From: Aquificota bacterium
Lineage (GTDB): Bacteria; Aquificota; Aquificia; Aquificales; Aquificaceae
Direction: 5' to 3'
Assembly: GCA_018771605.1 (NCBI GenBank)
Contig: CP076324.1
Coordinates: 248,001-312,000, forward strand
DNA length: 64,000 nucleotides
Positions 39,734-49,493 of the stretch are shown in pieces (within the stretch, counting starts at the first letter, position 1; each line of letters begins with the position of its first letter). The translations under genes and the position numbers were made by a program. The notes beneath the pieces were generated by a model, which saw nothing but the letters and a program-made list of their open reading frames with translations, was not told the origin of the DNA and did not search any database.

Positions 39734-40999
39734 TTATTTTAAGCCACCATTACACTCAAGCAAGGCATAAACTCCGTCAAACTCCTTGCCCTTTAGAAGA
39801 AGTTTGCAACTCGATAAATCTTTTAGATGGCTTTCCTTTGTTATGATTAGGCCTTTCGCCCGAAGGGGGTCTTCAAGCCTTTCTATGCATCTTTCTGAGT
39901 AATAAACCAAGGCTGAGTCTTCTGCCTTGTAAAAATAAACTGGCCCTTGATAGGCTTTGACTATGGGGTATGCCTTGGGTGTAAACCTGTTGGACTGGTA
40001 GAAGTATAAAAGGGGCAACAAAGAGATAAGCATAAGTAGGGAGAGGGAAACAGCGAGTCTCAAATAGCTTTTGCTTGCCACATGGGCCAGAAGGATGGCA
40101 AGGGGTGGGTAGGCAAAGAGTATGTAGTGGTGTAGCTTGTTGCTGGCAAGGCTAAAAAAGATAAGCACAAAGGAAAACCAAAGAAGTAGAGGGGTCCACT
40201 CCCTTTTAAAGCCTTTCAAAAGTCTTGGGTATAGGGGTAGGTACCAAAGGGTGCCTACGGCGAGGACAATAAGGTAATAATAAAAAGGTGCAGGATGGGT
40301 GGACCTCTGCCCTATGTATCTCATAAAGTTCTCATATATGAAAAACCTATAGAAGTATTCGTAGCCATGATGGGCTATCATGAGGGCATACCAAGAGAAG
40401 CCAAAAACAAAGAAAAGGAATAAGCCTTTTGGGTTGAGAAATCTAAAATCCCTTTTCCAAAGGAGATAAACACCTACGCATAGGACCACACCTACAGGAC
40501 CTTTTGTAAGAAAGGCAATGGACAAGGCAAGCCAGCCCAAAAGGAACCTTTCCTTTAAAAAGGCGTAAAGCCCAGCAAAGGTGAAAAAGGTATTTAGCAT
40601 CTCTGGAACTACGGCCCTTGACTCTATCCAAAGATGGGGAAAGGTAAGAAGTATCAAAGAGGCTTTTATAGCTATGTCCTTTGAGTAAAGGTCTCTTGCC
40701 AAAAGGTATGTTAGGACTGTTAGGCCTATGGCCGAAAGGCCTGAAACAAGCCTTGCAGAAAATTCATTTAAACCGAAGAGAAAAGAACTTATAGAAACAA
40801 GCCAGTATAGCATTGGAGGCTTTTCAAACCTTGGCTGGCAGTTATACATGGGAAGGATAAAGTCTTTACTCTTTAACATATGCTGGACTGCGCTCATATT
40901 CCTCCCTTCATCAAGGGAAGTAAAGGACAATATCCAGTTGCCAAGGAGGAAGTAGAGGAAGGATAAGATTAAAAAACCAAATAGGCCACGAGAAAGCAT
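39734..40999 (-). CDS. GT39-family membrane glycosyltransferase (ArnT-like)
   Basis: A 421-residue protein with about ten membrane helices. The first periplasmic loop carries the acidic motif SLDEGRN, which binds the lipid-phosphate sugar donor in GT39 enzymes, followed by [14 protein letters not shown] as in ArnT. It probably transfers a sugar from a polyprenyl phosphate donor to lipid A or another envelope target. ATG 40999 is chosen because AGGAG lies just upstream; the frame continues into duplicated DNA. Its first 208 codons lie in the exact 641-bp tandem repeat, of which the upstream copy is a truncated pseudogene. Confidence 0.85.
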
Positions 41000-41657
41000 A
41001 GCACTCCTATAAACCATATCATGAGGGCATACCAAGAGAAGCCAAAAACAAAGAAAAGGAATAAGCCTTTTGGGTTGAGAAATCTAAAATCCCTTTTCCA
41101 AAGGAGATAAACACCTACGCATAGGACCACACCTACAGGACCTTTTGTAAGAAAGGCAATGGACAAGGCAAGCCAGCCCAAAAGGAACCTTTCCTTTAAA
41201 AAGGCGTAAAGCCCAGCAAAGGTGAAAAAGGTATTTAGCATCTCTGGAACTACGGCCCTTGACTCTATCCAAAGATGGGGAAAGGTAAGAAGTATCAAAG
41301 AGGCTTTTATAGCTATGTCCTTTGAGTAAAGGTCTCTTGCCAAAAGGTATGTTAGGACTGTTAGGCCTATGGCCGAAAGGCCTGAAACAAGCCTTGCAGA
41401 AAATTCATTTAAACCGAAGAGAAAAGAACTTATAGAAACAAGCCAGTATAGCATTGGAGGCTTTTCAAACCTTGGCTGGCAGTTATACATGGGAAGGATA
41501 AAGTCTTTACTCTTTAACATATGCTGGACTGCGCTCATATTCCTCCCTTCATCAAGGGAAGTAAAGGACAATATCCAGTTGCCAAGGAGGAAGTAGAGGA
41601 AGGATAAGATTAAAAAACCAAATAGGCCACGAGAAAGCATAGCACTCCTATAAACCA
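40376..41657. repeat. Exact tandem duplication, two copies of 641 bp
   Basis: Copy 1 (40376-41016) and copy 2 (41017-41657) appear identical base for base on reading through both. Each covers the 5' part of the GT39 gene plus about 17 bp upstream of its ATG. Because 641 is not a multiple of 3, reading from copy 2 into copy 1 shifts the frame. Copy 2 ends exactly where host-like sequence stops next to the TnpB element. Confidence 0.95.
40969..41640 (-). pseudogene. Truncated duplicate of the GT39 glycosyltransferase
   Basis: The upstream copy encodes the first 213 or so residues identical to the gene at 39734-40999, up to FSWYALM, then runs out of frame at the copy junction and ends after [16 protein letters not shown]. 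It lacks the C-terminal half, so it is unlikely to be active. It carries the same start and AGGAG site as the intact copy. The out-of-frame tail is itself interesting because it looks like the C-terminus of a PAP2 phosphatase. Confidence 0.9.
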
Positions 41658-41660
41658 TCC
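41609..41660 (-). pseudogene. Possible 3' remnant of the interrupted PAP2 phosphatase gene
   Basis: On the minus strand, in a frame different from GT39, the sequence [16 protein letters not shown]-stop overlaps the GT39 start. It reads like the last membrane helix of a PAP2 phosphatase, which commonly ends with an AGW/GxxxG helix. The 5' fragment of a PAP2 gene without its C-terminus lies at 49101-49493 on the same strand, on the other side of the island. This suggests PAP2 and GT39 overlapped before the insertion. Inference from a short sequence only. Confidence 0.45.
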
Positions 41661-41671
41661 TACAGGGTGTT

Positions 41672-43177
41672 TCAAAAATAGCCCGTGCTTTCACACAGAC
41701 CACCGCCCCCGCCCCCTGAAGCGGGAACTTGCGCCCTTCTCGGGTCTCCCCACAAGCCCCGAAAGAGAATATCTTTCAGGACAGAGAGGTCCCTTAGGAC
41801 CTTCTCAGGGGAGAGTGCAGTCAGCACCACTACCTTGAGAACTTGCCATGGATTAAATCGGATACCTAAGCTTGTTCCTTCCAGAGGCTCAGATACCCTC
41901 CATGACTCACTCTCAAGGCTTAAAGACTTTATTAATGCTTCTATTTCTTTCATATGCTTGACCTTCAAATAGGCATTCTTTACTTTCTCTTTTACATATT
42001 CTTTTAGCTCCTTTAATTCCTCTACGCTTAGCCTTTTTATAAGCTCCATATAATTCTTTGGCACTTTTTCTTTTAGCCCTAAGCCTTTTCTTGCTATCAC
42101 ATAGGCACTTGCTACATCCTTGCTTACCATGTATTGTGGTGCATACTTTAACATGCCTATGATGGATGTGTAGGCTGGATTTACTTCTATCACTTCTATG
42201 CCATTCCTTTTTGCAAGTAGCTTTATCCTTTCTAATAGCTTTCTGTAAGCAAAGTTATGCCTTATCCTTCTTGAAAGCCTCCCAGAATAATCTCCTTTTT
42301 TTCCTTTGTCTTTTATCCTTAACTTCTCTATAACTATTGCCTTTCCTTTCTCTTTGGCTAAGCTTATAACCTTATGTGCGTATATCCATGTGTAGTAGTC
42401 TCTCTTGTTGCTATTACCACTTGATAGCTCTGGCATAGGCACCTCACCATAGCTTGTAAGGTTTCCACACTCATCCGTTTCTACCCAAGCTATGTGGTTT
42501 GGATAGGCGTTTAGGTCTATGCCTATTACTCCATAATCCTTTGTAATCTCTATCTGTGGATATTCCTCTTCTGCGGTAAAGTAAGCATACACATTGCCGT
42601 CTCTTAGCTTTAGTTCTACAGAATAAGCCTTTCCAGAAAAGGCTATCTCTTTGATCTTCTCTATCCTATCCCCTGCACTTATTAAGGCATAAACATATTG
42701 CCTCTCTCCTGTGGTTATCCTCAAGTATGTCCCATTTTCCTTTACCTCTATCCTTGTGTTTTGATTGCCTTTACAATTTGCTTCTCCTATGGAGTATAGA
42801 TTGCCTTTTCTCCTCTCTTGGAATTGGACTTTTAACCTTTGATAATCTTTCCCATTTATGTGTCTTTTCTGTAGTTTTCTAAAAATATCTCTTCCACCAA
42901 ATATAACCTTTTTTAAGCTTTCTCCTTTTTCTTTTCTTACTTTCATAAAGGCTTGTGCTTTAACAATGGCTGAGTGTGAGTATCTGGCGTTAAGTCCAAA
43001 CATACTTTGAATTAACTTTCTTAAAGTGTTTATATCCATGCCTTCCAGAAGTCTTTTGTAAGCATATCTCATGGCTGAAGACCATCTTCTCATGAGGTTT
43101 AGGACCTTTTCCTTGTCTTGATAGTTTGAGAATAAAAGCTTAGCGCTTATGGTTATCATCTTTTGGTATTTTAACAT
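41672..43177 (-). CDS. TnpB-like protein without zinc finger (IS200/IS605-type)
   Basis: A 501-residue RuvC-like nuclease homologue. RuvC-I is GVIGIDLNAYPNHIAW, RuvC-II is AIVIEKLRIKDKGKK and RuvC-III is SKDVASAYVIARKGLG, so all three acidic residues are present. Between II and III the usual CXXC...CXXC finger is missing: NPAYTS runs into IIGMLKYAPQYM. The C-terminal tail GDPRRAQVPASGGGGG is typical of TnpB proteins whose 3' end overlaps the guide-RNA scaffold. ATG 43177 is preferred over the extended frame (to 43309). No TnpA partner of the HUH type is adjacent. It may be an RNA-guided nuclease. Confidence 0.8.
   Translation of the reverse strand: MLKYQKMITISAKLLFSNYQDKEKVLNLMRRWSSAMRYAYKRLLEGMDINTLRKLIQSMFGLNARYSHSAIVKAQAFMKVRKEKGESLKKVIFGGRDIFRKLQKRHINGKDYQRLKVQFQERRKGNLYSIGEANCKGNQNTRIEVKENGTYLRITTGERQYVYALISAGDRIEKIKEIAFSGKAYSVELKLRDGNVYAYFTAEEEYPQIEITKDYGVIGIDLNAYPNHIAWVETDECGNLTSYGEVPMPELSSGNSNKRDYYTWIYAHKVISLAKEKGKAIVIEKLRIKDKGKKGDYSGRLSRRIRHNFAYRKLLERIKLLAKRNGIEVIEVNPAYTSIIGMLKYAPQYMVSKDVASAYVIARKGLGLKEKVPKNYMELIKRLSVEELKELKEYVKEKVKNAYLKVKHMKEIEALIKSLSLESESWRVSEPLEGTSLGIRFNPWQVLKVVVLTALSPEKVLRDLSVLKDILFRGLWGDPRRAQVPASGGGGGGLCESTGYF
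41700..41775 (-). ncRNA. Candidate omega-RNA 3' scaffold of the TnpB-like element
   Basis: On the minus strand the end of the TnpB-like gene becomes very G/C-rich and can fold as CCCGC-TTCAGGG-GCGGG after GGGAGACCCGAG-like pairing. TnpB guide RNAs normally overlap the 3' end of tnpB and end in such a hairpin at the element boundary. The guide would then be the flanking sequence just below about 41705. Boundaries are a guess. Confidence 0.35.
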
Positions 43178-43273
43178 AACCGGTAGGTTAAGTGGATTTT
43201 TGGAACAGCCTCTATAGACCCTGCCATAGCCTATGAGAAGGGGGTATAAAAGAAGAAAGGCCTTAGCCAAGGT

Positions 43274-43338
43274 GGGGAGAGTTCCCCTCCACATAGACAG
43301 ATATTCCACTGCCTATGTGCACCTAACTTAGTGTTAGG
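43274..43338. repeat. Cluster of three hairpins between the two TnpB-type genes
   Basis: GGGGA/TCCCC with loop GAGT (43274-43287), CACATAG/CTATGTG with a 16-bp loop (43290-43319), and CCTAAC/GTTAGG with a 5-bp loop (43322-43338, over the stop of the IS607 tnpB). Subterminal hairpins are usual at ends of IS200/IS605 elements and in TnpB guide RNAs. The boundary of the two elements is probably here, but neither end can be fixed by eye. Confidence 0.6.
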
Positions 43339-44834
43339 TCCTGCCGAGGGTTTAGGATATCCTCAAGGAACTCCTTGTAATAAGGATTTCCCTTGAGAAT
43401 ATCCAGGGGAGCACTCTTACACCCCTTTAGTCTCTCAAGGTGCCTCTTAATCAACACCTTAAGGAGTTGCTTTTTCGGCAGATTTAGATTAAACTCCCTG
43501 AGAGAACTTCTCTCAAGGAGATTTTTAGCACTATTCACTTGTGCATTTATCTTCTTACCACAAAATTTACACTCAAATTCTTGCGTACTTTTCCTATTCT
43601 TTTTATCTACATACCCACAACAACTACACTCCTGACTTGAATAAGCAGGATTAACTTCTACTATTTCTATACCATATAGCTGATGCAACCTCTCCAACTT
43701 CTCCTTTAAATAACGCTTACCAAAGTTTTGAATAAGCCTATTCATTCTCTTTGATAGTTCAGGACTTCTAAAGTCAAGCTTTTCTACAATAATCATCTTT
43801 GGCTTGTAAAGGTTAACAAGTCTATTCAACAGTCTATTTATTTCGTTCTTAAGAAACTCCCTCAACTTTTTCACATACTTTCTATACTTACTATCTCGAC
43901 TTAGTAACCCTTCATTCCTTTGAATATAAGCCATCCGTTTAACAATTTTCTCATCCATCTTCTTTAGAAAATCAAAAAATTGCCTGCCCATTAACTCTCC
44001 AGTGTTTGTAGCAATCAATGGATTTAGCCCTAAATCTATAGCTACTTTTTCCGTTAACGGTATGTATTCTCTCTTCTTTAACTGCTTCACTATTCTAAAC
44101 TCTATATTCCCAGTATCATCCTCAACCACTTGACAATAATTTAAAAACTCCCCCTCTACCTTCTCTGCATATGTATTTGCTCTAAGAGGCATATAGACTG
44201 GTTTTCCTTTTTCTAATGTAGCAACCTTTATCCAATAATCGAAAGATTTAGCACCATTTTCCTTCTTTTTACTTATCTCTACAACCTTCCCGTCTAAATG
44301 CATTGAAATATTCTCAAACCGGGGCTTCCTATTCTTCTTGAGCAAATGCTTAAATATCTTTTTTGCCAATTTCTTGTGAAACTCTGAAACCTTAACTATC
44401 TTTTTCTCCAACCCATTATCTCTTCTATCATAAACCTCTATCTCATCGTTATCATAGATAAGCCAACCCTTTACATTATTAAGTGCAAGCAAAATTAATT
44501 TATCCTCTCTCCTTAAACTCGAATTAAACACAATGTTAGCAAATTGTCGTTGAATGTTAGCTATATACCCTGCTAATATACTATACACTTGCCATAAACA
44601 CACATACTTATAGCGTTCTGATAACTGGCTTGGAATGTGCTTGATATTCAGAGACTTTCTATGCGGAAGCCTTCCAAAACGAAAGAACTGGTTCCAAAGA
44701 TATTCCGATATATCCTCAGCTGTTTTTCTGTATTCTTTTAAAACCCTTCTAACTTTTTCCAGTTTACCCTTATTTGCATAATTCACAAACAAATAAGAAC
44801 CAAATATTCTGTCTTCACTAACTTCACTCATCAT
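43323..44834 (-). CDS. tnpB: IS607 TnpB with altered RuvC-III motif
   Basis: A 503-residue TnpB-family protein. RuvC-I is KVAIDLGLNP (D267), RuvC-II is IIVEKLDFRS (E351). A full zinc finger follows: CSCC at 403-406 and CKFC at 422-425. In RuvC-III the family normally reads A-D-x-N-A-A-x-N; here it is NAQVNSAKN, with Gln432 (codon CAA) in place of the catalytic Asp. The protein may therefore bind guide RNA and DNA without cutting, unless another acidic residue substitutes. It overlaps the serine recombinase gene by 11 bp, forming an IS607-type pair. No stop or frameshift is present. Confidence 0.85.
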   Translation of the reverse strand: MMSEVSEDRIFGSYLFVNYANKGKLEKVRRVLKEYRKTAEDISEYLWNQFFRFGRLPHRKSLNIKHIPSQLSERYKYVCLWQVYSILAGYIANIQRQFANIVFNSSLRREDKLILLALNNVKGWLIYDNDEIEVYDRRDNGLEKKIVKVSEFHKKLAKKIFKHLLKKNRKPRFENISMHLDGKVVEISKKKENGAKSFDYWIKVATLEKGKPVYMPLRANTYAEKVEGEFLNYCQVVEDDTGNIEFRIVKQLKKREYIPLTEKVAIDLGLNPLIATNTGELMGRQFFDFLKKMDEKIVKRMAYIQRNEGLLSRDSKYRKYVKKLREFLKNEINRLLNRLVNLYKPKMIIVEKLDFRSPELSKRMNRLIQNFGKRYLKEKLERLHQLYGIEIVEVNPAYSSQECSCCGYVDKKNRKSTQEFECKFCGKKINAQVNSAKNLLERSSLREFNLNLPKKQLLKVLIKRHLERLKGCKSAPLDILKGNPYYKEFLEDILNPRQDLTLS

Positions 44835-45411
44835 CTTGAATTACCCTCATTATCTCCTCTGTTTTTTTCTTTGCTCTTCTAAGTCCATATAACCTTGCTG
44901 AAAAGCTATAAACTATTGAAACCAAATCCTGTATCAAATCTGTTTTATCATCATCCGCTTCATTTACTATTTCAATCCTTCTACCAGTGCTTTCAAGCCA
45001 TCCTTTGATGTAAGTAAAACCAAATCTTGTAAGCCTATCCTTATGTTCCACAAGTAGAATTTTATAATCATTTTGATTAAGTAGCTTCATTAATTTAGGT
45101 CTTGCATCATTAACGCCTGACCCTATTTCCTTTACAACATGCTTTATATGATATCCTCTCGCTACAGCATACTCCTTCAACCTCTCAGCCTGCCTTTCTA
45201 AATTATCCTTACTTGCATGATCCGATACTCTACAATAAATCGCAACTGTATTATCATCGCTAATTATGTTTTTATTAACACAATCATCCTCTAAAACTAT
45301 AATACTTCCCGTAGGCAACTTTACAGCATTTGGAATTTGCCCTTTTCGATACATCCTCCAAGCTGTCTTATAGCTTATCCCTAATTTCTTTGCCCACTGT
45401 GATAACTTCAT
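44824..45411 (-). CDS. tnpA: IS607-family serine recombinase TnpA
   Basis: A 195-residue protein. An N-terminal MerR-like helix-turn-helix (MKLSQWAKKLGISYKTAWRMYRKGQIP) precedes a serine recombinase domain with VAIYCRVSD, holding the nucleophilic Ser, then ERQAERLKEYA and LLVEHKDRLTRFGF. This order, DNA-binding domain first, is that of IS607 transposases, which recombine at short core dinucleotides without target duplication. The frame extends upstream to 45459, but MKLSQW at 45411 is the natural start. It is translated just ahead of tnpB. Confidence 0.92.
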   Translation of the reverse strand: MKLSQWAKKLGISYKTAWRMYRKGQIPNAVKLPTGSIIVLEDDCVNKNIISDDNTVAIYCRVSDHASKDNLERQAERLKEYAVARGYHIKHVVKEIGSGVNDARPKLMKLLNQNDYKILLVEHKDRLTRFGFTYIKGWLESTGRRIEIVNEADDDKTDLIQDLVSIVYSFSARLYGLRRAKKKTEEIMRVIQDDE

Positions 45412-45494
45412 AAGAACAATGTAAAACAAAAAGGAAAATTTGTCAATAGATTTACCCAAAAGGACATTAAATTAAAAACAAATTTCAAGACCTT

Positions 45495-46160
45495 ATGGTT
45501 TCCTACATGAGAGCCAGCAACATACCATATGGACTCTTCGCCATGCACGATATAGAAACCGAACAAAGAAGAAAAAAAGGCTTCTTAAGGAACAGGATAA
45601 CCATCACTTTCTACGAAAAGCCCAAATTCTATGCCATCATTAAAGATGCGGGCGTAGGACAGCATCTGGGCTACGGATACTACCTTATAGAAGAGGGGCA
45701 ATTTAACGACTTTATAAAAAACAGAACTTATCTTGACCAAACATCAAGGTCAGGCTGGAGCTTCTTTGGCAACCTCTTCTTCTTTGCAATTACCGCTGCT
45801 GTTGCCGCCTTTGCCCTACCTGCACTGGGAATAGGAGGGCTGGCAGCAGGGACGGGGTCAATGACAGGATCCTTCTTCGCCCCCGTTTTCCTTTCTACCT
45901 TTGGAGTTCAGGTTGGCATGTATGCTATAAGGATTGGTAGCACTGGAGCCACTACAACGGGTCCGTGGAACGCTCTTCTTGCTCCTGCCAATTACGAAAG
46001 GATAAATGGCGTAAATAATCCTGGCACCAATGCACTGAGAAACAAGATTGCTAACGAAAACGAAGATAATGGTTCTCTCTCTGGTTTCAGAGAGGCGTGG
46101 CACGTCCGCAAGTCTCAGGAAAGCTCTACGAGGGCTCCTGCTTACTTCTATAACTACTGA
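45495..46160 (+). CDS. Unknown protein with hydrophobic hairpin, island cargo
   Basis: A 221-residue protein I do not recognise. A soluble N-terminal part (about 1-85) with YEKPKFYAIIKDAGVGQHLGYGYYLIEE is followed by two Gly/Ala-rich hydrophobic segments (about 95-120 and 128-150), then a polar C-terminus rich in Asn and Gly. It begins 15 bp from the presumed end of the IS607 element and has no clear ribosome binding site, so its 5' end may have been cut by the insertion. The 3' end overlaps a ribbon-helix-helix gene on the other strand. A viral or plasmid membrane protein is possible but unproven. Confidence 0.5.
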   Translation: MVSYMRASNIPYGLFAMHDIETEQRRKKGFLRNRITITFYEKPKFYAIIKDAGVGQHLGYGYYLIEEGQFNDFIKNRTYLDQTSRSGWSFFGNLFFFAITAAVAAFALPALGIGGLAAGTGSMTGSFFAPVFLSTFGVQVGMYAIRIGSTGATTTGPWNALLAPANYERINGVNNPGTNALRNKIANENEDNGSLSGFREAWHVRKSQESSTRAPAYFYNY

Positions 46161-46281
46161 GTATCTCCGTAAGCAACAGAGAGAGGCTCTTACCCTCTCT
46201 TTCCGCCTTCTCATACAGCCAGTCCACAATATCCGCAGGCAACAAAGCCCCTATCCTCCTTAACTGCATCTTCGGAGACAT
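46126..46281 (-). CDS. Small ribbon-helix-helix-like DNA-binding protein
   Basis: A 51-residue protein, MSPKMQLRRIGALLPADIVD then WLYEKAEREGKSLSLLLTEIL. This has the length and pattern of a ribbon-helix-helix repressor: a short beta strand with basic residues, then helix A, a Gly-containing turn (REGKSLS) and helix B. The frame is open to 46317, but ATG 46281 fits the fold best. It converges with and overlaps the unknown ORF at 45495 by 35 bp. Such proteins often regulate plasmid or phage genes; its target is unknown. Confidence 0.55.
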   Translation of the reverse strand: MSPKMQLRRIGALLPADIVDWLYEKAEREGKSLSLLLTEILSSYRSKQEPS

Positions 46282-46366
46282 GGCTCTAAAACCTTTCCTG
46301 CCCCTTAACTGTCTCATAAAATGTATTTTACCACATTCTTATGACTGAGTATTTAGCAAAAGATAC

Positions 46367-46395
46367 TTGACAAAAGATGTTGCAGGAGTTATAAT
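46367..46395 (+). promoter_or_regulatory. Consensus sigma-70 promoter of the lipoprotein gene
   Basis: TTGACA (46367-46372), a 17-bp spacer and TATAAT (46390-46395) match the consensus exactly. An AAAGGAGG ribosome binding site follows before the ATG at 46427. It is the strongest promoter seen in the window and lies in the foreign island. Confidence 0.8.
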
Positions 46396-46426
46396 AACTA
46401 ATAGAAACCTGAAAGGAGGTTTGACC

Positions 46427-47137
46427 ATGAGGGGAGTTTTGGCAGTAGGACTTGCAGGAGTAGTAGCTTTGAGTGGGTGTGCTTACATGGTCACTGGCAA
46501 ATATGAGAACAGGGTGCCAGAGGATGAGCACAGGCAAATGCTAACAAGATACAAGGTTGACATGCAGGAAGTGAGCAAGGACTTTGAGGAAGTGAGCAAT
46601 CTGGCTCAGAAGAGGGTAAAGCAGTTGAAAACCGTAAACTACACATATCCTCTCTCTGTGGCTGTGCCCTTTGTTGGACCCACTGCGTGGTTTGTCTATA
46701 CGGGAACGGTAAAATACAACATGCAGAAGGACGCAGAGGAAAGAAGGACTGTAAGGATAAGGACGCTTTACGAGGACAGCTCCGTCAAGCTTGACAGGTG
46801 CGTCTTCAAGCGAGTGGTCTCTCAATCTCCTGAAATTGAGAGGGTGATTGTGGATAAAGTGGGTGTTGGAGAAGCTCAGAGTGTCTCTGGTCTTAAACTG
46901 GATGAGAAGGAAAAGGAGCAGGTTTTGAGGATACACTACCTGAAGCAGAGGATGCTTTACGAAGGAGAACTCTACGGAACTCATGCGGCAATCATGGAAA
47001 TAAGCAAGGATGGCAAGCCGATAAAGGCGGTGCTTGCCACAGGCACATTTGGAGTAGGATTGCCCCTTGTTTACGGAGAAGCCTTTAAGGAGCTTGCCAC
47101 TGCGTGTAAGAAGAAAGAAGAGGTCGGGGGTGAATAA
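46427..47137 (+). CDS. Predicted lipoprotein in the island
   Basis: A 236-residue protein with a lipoprotein signal: MRGVLAVGLAGVVALSGCAY, with the lipobox LSGC placing the lipidated Cys at residue 18. The mature part is charged and helical near the start and has a hydrophobic stretch (YPLSVAVPFVGPTAWFVYTG) near residue 75. No known domain is recognised. ATG 46427 is chosen for the AAAGGAGG site; it has a consensus promoter. It converges with the GspF-like gene with a 1-bp gap. It may belong to the same secretion or pilus system, which is only a guess from proximity. Confidence 0.75.
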   Translation: MRGVLAVGLAGVVALSGCAYMVTGKYENRVPEDEHRQMLTRYKVDMQEVSKDFEEVSNLAQKRVKQLKTVNYTYPLSVAVPFVGPTAWFVYTGTVKYNMQKDAEERRTVRIRTLYEDSSVKLDRCVFKRVVSQSPEIERVIVDKVGVGEAQSVSGLKLDEKEKEQVLRIHYLKQRMLYEGELYGTHAAIMEISKDGKPIKAVLATGTFGVGLPLVYGEAFKELATACKKKEEVGGE

Positions 47138-47138
47138 T

Positions 47139-48125
47139 TCACCCCCCTCTTGCCATCTGCTGGATTTTGTATAGCAGATAAAACATAAAGCCATACATGA
47201 CAATTATCACAGTGCCTGCGACTGTAAGTTTTATAAGGTTTAGCGTAGAAAAGAGAGAGTTAAGCAAGACTGAGCGCCTGCGTTCTACTTCAGAAGAGAG
47301 GTAGTTAAACAGGTCAAGGTTTCCTGTTTGAGCTACCGTCTTGAAAACTCCCTTCTCCACTTCGTTGAAAAGATTGCTCCTGGTAAAACTTTCAAAGCCC
47401 TTTTCTGGAAACAGTCTTGCCACAAGATGCATTCTGTAGCGGTCTCTGAAAAGCCTGTGGAGAATTCTGACTGCTTCCATCGGATTGGGAGCGGTAAGGA
47501 GCAGGGTAAAGACCACTGCCTTTTCGTTCTCCACAAGGAGTTTCCTGTAGGAAGGAATAAGAAAAAGCACTTTCCTGTGTAGCTTCAACACAAGAGCAAT
47601 TACCACTGGCAGAGAAAGAACAACAAATATCACAAACTTCTTGACAAAACTTGCCTGAAAGAAAAGGTTATACACAGTCCTTAAAAGAGCGTCCCTGCTT
47701 ATCCTCTCTGGCTCTCCTATGCCCGACATAAGATTGTTGACTACCACAGGCAGATAAAACATAGACGCCACCGCAAAAGCAATTACTATAAGAATTCCAA
47801 GTATCCACATGTCTCTGTCTATCTTTTTGTAAGTGTTTTCCACCTCCATGAGTTTTTCCAACTGCCTTATGGTGTTGTCAAGCCCCTCTTTTAATGCTCC
47901 AGCCTGCTCGTAAGCGGATAACTGCTCCGTCAGGTCCTTAGGAAAACCCGCAGAAAGTAAAGCAGTCCTTAATGATGAACCCGCACTCAGCCTCTTGCTT
48001 ATCTGTCTTGCCCACTCAGGAAAACCCACAGATAGCTCCGCTACCTTTGCCGCCTGCGACAAGTCCATTACCTCTAAAGCGTTGCTCAGAGCCTGCAAAT
48101 ATGAGTAAATGCTCTCCAGCTTCAT
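47139..48125 (-). CDS. GspF/PilC-like inner-membrane platform protein
   Basis: A 328-residue protein with the layout of type II secretion/type IV pilus platform proteins. A helical cytoplasmic domain (SAGSSLRTALLSAGFPKDLTEQLSAYEQAGALKEGLDN) is followed by a pair of membrane helices near 105-130 and 170-190. A second cytoplasmic domain is followed by a last membrane helix near 300-320. It is shorter and more divergent than standard GspF. It overlaps the upstream ATPase gene by 4 bp. No pilin or secretin gene accompanies it, so the system here is incomplete. Confidence 0.8.
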   Translation of the reverse strand: MKLESIYSYLQALSNALEVMDLSQAAKVAELSVGFPEWARQISKRLSAGSSLRTALLSAGFPKDLTEQLSAYEQAGALKEGLDNTIRQLEKLMEVENTYKKIDRDMWILGILIVIAFAVASMFYLPVVVNNLMSGIGEPERISRDALLRTVYNLFFQASFVKKFVIFVVLSLPVVIALVLKLHRKVLFLIPSYRKLLVENEKAVVFTLLLTAPNPMEAVRILHRLFRDRYRMHLVARLFPEKGFESFTRSNLFNEVEKGVFKTVAQTGNLDLFNYLSSEVERRRSVLLNSLFSTLNLIKLTVAGTVIIVMYGFMFYLLYKIQQMARGG

Positions 48126-49141
48126 CGCACCTTGTTAACTACTTCATCTATGGATACCTCCCCCTTCACCGCAAGCTCTATAGCTTTTTCTACCATGCTC
48201 CTGAAACCATACCTCTCCCTTACCAGTTCAAAACAGCTCCTGTAGTCAAAAACTTCCCTCCTCGCTATAGCCTTCTTTATCTCCTCATCATATACAGGTA
48301 AAAGCTCTATCACAAGCTCCTTCTCCTTCGTGCTACCTGAATAACCACACTGAGGACACCCCTCGTTGTAAACTACAACCACATCCTCCTTTATGCCAAA
48401 CAACATCTTCTCCGCCCTGGTCATCGGTCTTTGCTTCCTGCAGTAAGGACAGCTCTTCCTTAAAAGCCTCTGCCCCATAAACAACACACCATACTCAAGC
48501 ACGTCCTTCTCCTCTACACCCAAATCCACAAGCCTGCGTATAACCTCAAAAGCATTGTTGGCATGTATGGTGGAAAAAGTTAAATGCCCAGTGCCCGCAA
48601 GCTTTATAAGCGCCGACGCACTCACAGGGTCCCTCACCTCACCCACAAGACATACGTCCGGGTCTTCCCTCAATATGCCCTTTATTATCTCGTCAAAACT
48701 CATGTTCTGCGTTATCTGATGCTGCCACCATAAATAGTAGTTCTGATACTCTATAGGGTCCTCCACCGACACTATCTTCCTGTCAAGTGCGTTTATGGAG
48801 TTTAGTATGGCATACATGGTAGTGGTCTTGCCCGAAGAAGTAGGACCCGAAGTCAACACTATCCCATAACTCGCATCCCTCGCTATCCTTATAACGTCAT
48901 ATTCCTCATCACTCAAACCAAGCCTTGAAAGCGAATAAGAACTCCCGCTCCCCTTCCGTAATAGCCTCAAGACACACCTCTCGTTGGTATACTCCCCTAC
49001 CTCTACATACGGACTCGCAGGCATTACCACCACCCTCACGTCAAGCTCATCACCCGCAAAAACCATACTGAAAGAACCGTCCTTCCTCCTGTCCCTCGGC
49101 TCACCCGCCCTGTTTATCCTCGCCTTTATCGCATTTATCAA
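48122..49141 (-). pseudogene. GspE/PilB-type secretion ATPase, 5'-truncated
   Basis: A 339-codon reading frame with a complete ATPase core: Walker A GPTSSGKTTTMYAILN, Asp box EDPIEY, Walker B LREDPDVCLVGEVRD, His box STIHANN, and the zinc motif CPYCRKQ...CPQCGYSG. The frame opens (TTG at 49141) in the middle of the usual N-terminal domain; the family normally has 150 or more residues before this point. Just upstream the sequence becomes a PAP2 phosphatase gene in another frame. It is therefore most likely a fragment cut at the island edge, though the core might still be made. Confidence 0.75.
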
Positions 49142-49493
49142 AGACTTCTATAAGACATAGGGCAATGCTCATTGCCATGGCAGAGTCTCCAGAAGGGAAG
49201 GATTTTAGATGTAGGTCCTCTAAGGCATAAACCTTTGGAAGGACAGCAGGAGGCCTTTTTGCCCTTATGGTATACTTTAGTGCTTTTACGATAATAGTTT
49301 GTAAAACCATTACAAAAAGATACTTTGGAAAGGCTTTTTCCAAAAAGATGAAAAACAATGCACCAACAAAGGCGACAAACCAGCCTTTTCCAAAAAGATG
49401 AAAGTATCTGTAAAAGAGGTCCAAAAAGGTACGTCTGTTATAGTTCATAAGATAGAAAAGCCTATGGTTAAAAGGAGTATTTCCTATGTCCAC
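49101..49493 (-). pseudogene. PAP2-family phosphatase, 3'-truncated by the island
   Basis: A 130-codon fragment. It has the first PAP2 motif ALKYTIRAKRPPA and the second LKSFPSGDSAMAMS (Asp where most have His). The third motif (SR...H...D) is missing. After FDK the frame continues about 12 residues into island sequence and stops. Membrane helices are visible near residues 40-70. Such enzymes dephosphorylate polyprenyl or lipid phosphates. A plausible 3' remnant sits at 41609-41660. The start overlaps the upstream gene by 10 bp. Confidence 0.75.

Follow-up and report, generated by a model that had tools for sequence, protein, structure and literature searches.

The window, by which we mean the whole 64,000-nucleotide stretch of Aquificota DNA analysed, carries on its minus strand an IS607 element with two overlapping genes. 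The tnpA gene (44824-45459), recognised as an open reading frame and by profile NF033518 (186.8 bits, for a cut-off of 110), encodes an IS607-type serine recombinase. It overlaps by 11 bases with tnpB (43323-44834), which encodes a protein of 503 amino acids and was recognised from its open reading frame, a profile search, motif positions and a fold model. The minus strand is the coding strand of tnpB, the plus strand having 30 stops over the same span, and the frame is undamaged. The left end and tnpA leader region lie at 45385-45491 (minus strand), as judged by sequence similarity to the left end of a related copy, L010. At the other extremity, the right end and a putative guide-RNA (omegaRNA) scaffold of 38 conserved pairs, delimited by the right-end motif, folding and covariation, occupy 43280-43509 (minus strand) and terminate in GGGGAACT. 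The first 16 nt beyond it (43264-43279, minus strand), placed by flank comparison, make up the expected guide and fall inside an interrupted PAP2 gene.

An altered RuvC-III motif

In the TnpB of the window, the RuvC-I motif AIDLG at 265 contains Asp267 (codon 44034-44036, minus strand) and the RuvC-II motif IIVEKLDF at 348 contains Glu351 (codon 43782-43784, minus strand). The zinc cysteines C403, C406, C422 and C425 are found in CSCCG at 403 and CKFCG at 422, within a zinc ribbon spanning C403-C425 (43560-43628, minus strand). All were assigned by motif position. At RuvC-III, the motif reads NAQVNSAKN at 430, and codon 432 (43539-43541, minus strand) is CAA, glutamine, where an aspartate is expected. 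Q432 aligns opposite the Asp of NADxNAxxN in solved Cas12f chains. Going from GAT or GAC to CAA or CAG takes at least two base changes. The sequence-only reading had described Gln432 (CAA) in place of the RuvC-III Asp, an exchange requiring two or more base changes, in an otherwise intact frame where Asp267, Glu351 and the zinc finger are preserved and an overlapping serine recombinase is present; each of these points was borne out.

The protein passed the cut-off of the guided_TnpB profile (NF040570, 110.2 bits for 100), and scored 31 bits with the IS607_TnpB profile (NF038280), far under the cut-off of 350. An AlphaFold2 model (pLDDT 90, pTM 0.81) adopts the TnpB fold, its top structural match being ISDra2 TnpB (8h1j; Z 18.0, rmsd 4.5, 336 residues aligned). 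ISDra2 TnpB differs in belonging to a Y1-transposase element and in having Asp at RuvC-III. The model has a strand at 345-351 and a helix from 431 on, so that Q432 is predicted to sit where the RuvC-III helix begins.

Gln432 is shared by a clade

Relatives were searched in 101 genomes, then in 136 of the phylum, and by tblastn in phages and plasmids. The genome searches gave the window copy and nine others with Gln, from nine related genomes in total; tblastn added the Thermus phages YS40_Isch and TMA and the T. thermophilus plasmid pTthSNM7-6b, all three with Gln. In the alignment of these 13 members, D267, E351, Q432 and the four zinc cysteines of the CxxC-CxxC ribbon are present in every one, and all 13 match NF040570 at E ≤ 0.001. 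Outside this group, Asp was found in 36 of the 36 rows with a letter at the RuvC-III column and in 82 of 87 viral open reading frames (the other five having a gap), counts that are inflated by near-identical rows. L060, a damaged fragment of 97 amino acids outside the clade, has Gly in this column; it was excluded from later alignments together with other frames under 280 amino acids. A search of viral contigs with the single window protein found no relative, and a DNA pattern for NAQVNxAxxN gave 18 stretches in viral contigs, none of which profile searches identified as TnpB at E ≤ 1.

In a tree of 54 rows (L087-L162 and short rows being excluded), the Gln group forms one side of a branch with support 100/99, recovered in 100% of 200 bootstrap trees. 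Deeper forks near the clade are weak (83/85), and the branch leading to the T. thermophilus row is long. Because all outer rows have Asp, a single Asp-to-Gln change in the clade ancestor suffices. Clade members diverge down to about 45% identity, yet share the Gln, and its being common to all 13 shows it to be more than chance.

The sequence-only reading had proposed an alignment with related TnpBs, and held that close relatives with Asp would mean a recent mutation. The alignment placed Q432 in all 13 members, and close relatives with Asp were looked for without being found, Asp appearing only outside the clade. As tnpB is present in a single copy in its own genome, an inactivating mutation or a sequence error in one copy could have been imagined, but the same residue in 12 other copies at such distances, written with both Gln codons, leaves this idea hardly any credit, and Gln432 throughout the clade led us to reject it.

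Selection on the protein

For seven pairs within the clade, dN/dS was 0.112-0.192 over the whole gene; for the RuvC region, the range was 0.082-0.163 in six pairs, with the seventh at saturation. Such values (0.08-0.19) indicate that the Gln clade is under purifying selection. Synonymous variation is seen at each of codons 267, 351 and 432, with no change of residue across the clade; at 432, CAA is found in nine copies and CAG in four. Of the 13 copies, 11 are unbroken; an insertion removed the start residues of L043, and the G029 copy is split.

A putative guide RNA and changing insertion sites

The scaffold spans the 230 nt leading up to the right end, and comprises six helices with 38 pairs, 22 of them with two-sided changes. 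Its cells are paired at 96.4%, versus 83.8% in shuffles, and on each of five measures none of 500 shuffles reached the observed value. When the partners are slid, pairing falls to 38.7-51.8%; this control is biased towards the scaffold, because the same alignment served to predict it. However, two-sided changes are seen in each of the five outer-helix pairs, and these are hard to explain other than by a real structure. Synonymous codon identity goes from 0.39-0.51 in codons 10-429 up to 0.66-0.70 in codons 450-503 (scan of 10 of the 13 clade rows). The 3' end of tnpB appears from this to encode a strongly covarying, putative guide-RNA scaffold, at the location expected for a TnpB. An Rfam search gave two unrelated matches only, far under their thresholds.

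The right-end motif GGGG(G)(A)ACT is found in all 13 copies at most 59 nt past the stop, and overlaps the stop in L013. What follows it differs in each copy: the 16-nt guide regions are 13 distinct sequences, the best pair being identical at 8 of 16 positions, and flanks of up to 600 nt had no mutual similarity at E ≤ 1e-3. The copy in phage TMA interrupts a site that is continuous in phage phiYS40, with flanks 99% identical, and the YS40_Isch copy lies at a different site, where phiYS40 and TMA have no insertion. The common right-end motif, the different flanks and the TMA insertion facing an empty phiYS40 site argue that the Gln432 TnpB lineage is mobile and, putatively, RNA-guided, unlike TldR repressors. 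The left ends of nine copies have a common ACTART core, mostly preceded by a GTATTAG-like sequence. As the TATT of this motif is already present in the empty phiYS40 site, the motif may be a candidate target-side motif (TAM), a lead that comes from one clear case.

In the window, the PAP2 gene, intact in G007 and L184, is split into halves on the 49126-49493 side and at 43215-43281, 5.8 kb apart (43281-49127). The gap contains the IS607 element and about 3.6 kb with a T2SSE-type ATPase gene truncated at its start and a T2SSF protein gene; for this 3.6 kb stretch, only matches under 50 bases were found in 13 congeners. The right end of the element lies exactly at the PAP2 break, and at the left break (..TTATAGAAG/TCTTTGAT..) the sequence is similar to that of other left ends, for which reasons the element may have carried adjoining DNA as cargo. 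A joined-flank search in the genus gave no contiguous empty site, but showed that the right flank belongs to the PAP2 gene.

Loss of the transposase gene

Intact, adjoining TnpA is found in three of the 13 clade copies, and three of the nine host genomes have any TnpA match at E ≤ 1e-8. Several of the other copies keep the left end and the TnpA start or a helix-turn-helix fragment, with differing deletion junctions; in L076 (2320-2502), L013 and L016, only the N-terminal helix-turn-helix is left after internal deletions whose junctions are different. Such loss is also common outside the Gln clade: at 24 Asp-type loci, a full-length TnpA lay upstream in five, a fragment in one and none in 18, one of these 18 having only 505 bases of upstream sequence covered. 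TnpA loss was hence discarded as a marker of the clade, being not tied to Gln.

L010 and L011 have the same TnpA deletion junction at different sites, so a TnpA-less element moved, presumably in trans, while its TnpB was under selection. As this pair keeps a RuvC dN/dS of 0.082, it further suggests that TnpB itself benefits the element.

Apart from the element, a second IS607-type TnpA, with 40% identity, occurs in the genome of the window (C1, 1287554-1288135 of G000) and in L002, and a short TnpB frame lies near it. On a Salipiger profundus plasmid (L080, 1-2596), the gene annotated immediately before a related Asp-type TnpB is that of an IS1595 transposase, not of an IS607 recombinase.

Acidic residues around the site

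A relocated acid would restore the triad, D354 or D314 standing in for Asp432 and making the site effectively D-E-D. All 13 clade members have D354, a position occupied by Asn in five of the six Asp relatives nearest to them, and D314, present in 12 of 13, is absent from all six. However, L083, as well as plasmid relatives with Asp432, also has Asp at position 354, and the T. thermophilus copy has Val at 314. Other RuvC-region acids do no better. The sequence-only reading had named Glu402, Asp410 and Glu421 as possible replacements, and none of them looks compensating: E402 is kept in eight of 13 and E421 in ten, and D410, although in all 13, is also in the six nearest Asp-bearing relatives, so that these three were rejected. 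E393 is kept in 11 of 13, and D294 and E331 also occur in Asp432 relatives. E467, in the RNA-coding C-terminal part, is found in all 13, and is Glu in 21 of the 36 Asp rows. Among the RuvC-region acids of the 13 members compared with Asp-bearing relatives, none was both invariant and clade-specific, for which reason a relocated acid is not supported; we regard it as improbable. Residues 356, 370, 373, 374 and 382 are clade-specific, and presumably fall at the expected lid, if E351 is taken to be E278 of ISDra2 TnpB.

Possible activities of the D-E-Q protein

The RuvC-III Asp is treated here as the equivalent of D134 in RNase HI. In E. coli RNase HI, according to the available part of the source, D134 is the last Asp and binds metal A with D10; its change to Asn or His keeps reduced activity and raises thermostability, and there is a Mn2+-dependent activity without need of it (PMC4032109). 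Because these substitutions keep reduced activity, a D-E-Q site is chemically plausible by analogy, if weaker or metal-selective. On the other hand, cleavage by the IS607 TnpB of ISFba1 requires D194, E290 and D371, D371A being the catalytic mutant (PMC11061315, available in part), and this dependence would count against cutting by a D-E-Q site. Retained D and E are no proof of cutting either, because Cas12m variants keeping D-E-D do not cut dsDNA in the available portion of PMC11013384. In the mutagenesis literature examined, as far as its available text goes, no assay of Gln at the third RuvC position was found.

We favour, with a probability of about 0.5, a protein that is still a metal-dependent nuclease, probably weakened or strand-biased, with Gln as third ligand. 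The protein is a transposon-borne TnpB whose clade ancestor swapped its RuvC-III Asp for Gln. It would bind the right-end RNA, be programmed by the DNA adjoining the right end, and recognise the empty donor site. Asp267 and Glu351 would hold the metals, the side-chain oxygen of Gln432 replacing the third carboxylate, and DNA would still be hydrolysed; the cut may be slower, metal-selective or strand-biased (nicking), and would still favour retention of the element.

Binding without cutting is possible, but less favoured by us than retained nucleolysis. The ribonucleoprotein would then serve the transposon by binding the empty donor site uncut, and D267 and E351 would do no more than hold a metal and the strand that is displaced. 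Its task could be to keep the empty allele blocked, to regulate tnpA, or to offer the site to TnpA so that the element re-inserts. Cas12m with H-D-D, N-D-D or D-E-D sites acts through binding, and Cas12m2 holds one Mg2+ and the non-target strand (available parts of PMC11013384 and PMC10442227); the conserved guide scaffold and fold would be expected irrespective of cutting. However, binding alone has no obvious benefit in cis for a TnpA-less element, though TnpB is selected there, and D267 and E351 were never lost in 13 copies. A further proposal, which we consider rather unlikely, is that D-E-Q TnpBs are targeting factors and not double-strand cutters: by guided binding or nicking of the empty donor site they would pass the site on, in cis or in trans, to the IS607 recombinase, as a minimal RNA-guided re-insertion, the third carboxylate having been traded away to avoid breaks.

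A TldR-type protein, domesticated to repress a host or phage gene under RNA guidance, would account for the changed RuvC residue, one of three in the D-E-Q site, the ten of 13 copies without intact adjoining TnpA and the two phage-borne copies. Yet D267, E351 and the zinc ribbon are intact in all 13. In the window TnpA is intact, and the 13 copies, each with a distinct guide, share no right flanks. In its own genome, the window guide has no match with zero or one mismatch besides itself; at two mismatches there are six further matches, compared with three for the control. We rejected a domesticated regulator with a fixed guide, since guides differ in all 13 copies and the window guide has no other target with zero or one mismatch in its own genome, and hold the repressor reading to be very improbable. 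The intermediate step between nuclease and regulator put forward by the sequence-only reading has likewise lost ground: the change arose once and persisted in a diverse clade while copies moved and gained guides.

Comparison with known systems

A census of TnpB proteins (PNAS 2023) reportedly describes rearranged and inactivated sites in several branches. Site changes are known generally in the TnpB family, as Glu relocation in Fanzor (PMC10711439) and inactivation in TldR (PMC13418256), both sources being available in part, as are those cited below. Like Fanzor and pro-Fanzor proteins, which are TnpB-family and partly IS607-linked, the Gln clade has a clade-wide altered RuvC site; unlike them, it keeps its Glu and has Asp changed to Gln, whereas their Glu relocates and the RuvC-III Asp is kept (PMC10711439). 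With TldR it shares an altered RuvC site, a kept guide RNA and some phage copies, but in the Gln clade every insertion has its own guide, two of the three catalytic residues never vary and the copies remain mobile (PMC13418256). Canonical ISFba1 TnpB has the same fold, zinc ribbon, 3'-end guide RNA and IS607 context, but has Asp371 where the window TnpB has Gln432, and the clade is far under the IS607_TnpB cut-off (PMC11061315). Cas12m is another TnpB-derived protein with a non-canonical triad under selection, but it works as a CRISPR effector, and its substitutions are different ones (H-D-D and N-D-D among them), D-E-Q not being among those described in the available text (PMC10442227, PMC11013384). 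In the literature on RuvC-site variants that was searched, partly available and covering neither the main TnpB census (PNAS 2023) nor the Nature 2024 TldR study, no RuvC-III Gln clade was found; a clade-wide Asp-to-Gln change at RuvC-III in still-moving elements was not met there, which does not establish its absence from print.

The clade, from hot-spring bacteria and phages, is a natural test of active-site needs. Should Gln432 support cutting, nature would offer a case in which a neutral residue can replace the third carboxylate of the TnpB/Cas12 RuvC site, and the proteins could be developed into nickases that are thermostable or editors under metal control. Should it not, they would be mobile, re-programmable, non-cutting TnpBs under selection, whose role for the transposon would need explaining.

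Two other features were seen next to the element. The neighbouring gene at 41672-43309 (minus strand) encodes a TnpB-like protein, of the TIGR01765 type, that lacks a zinc ribbon ahead of its RuvC-III-like sequence SKDVASAYV; the genome has related open frames in several further places. At 39734-41035 and 40969-41703 (minus strand), a glycosyltransferase-like gene adjoins a partial second copy of its own N-terminal part.
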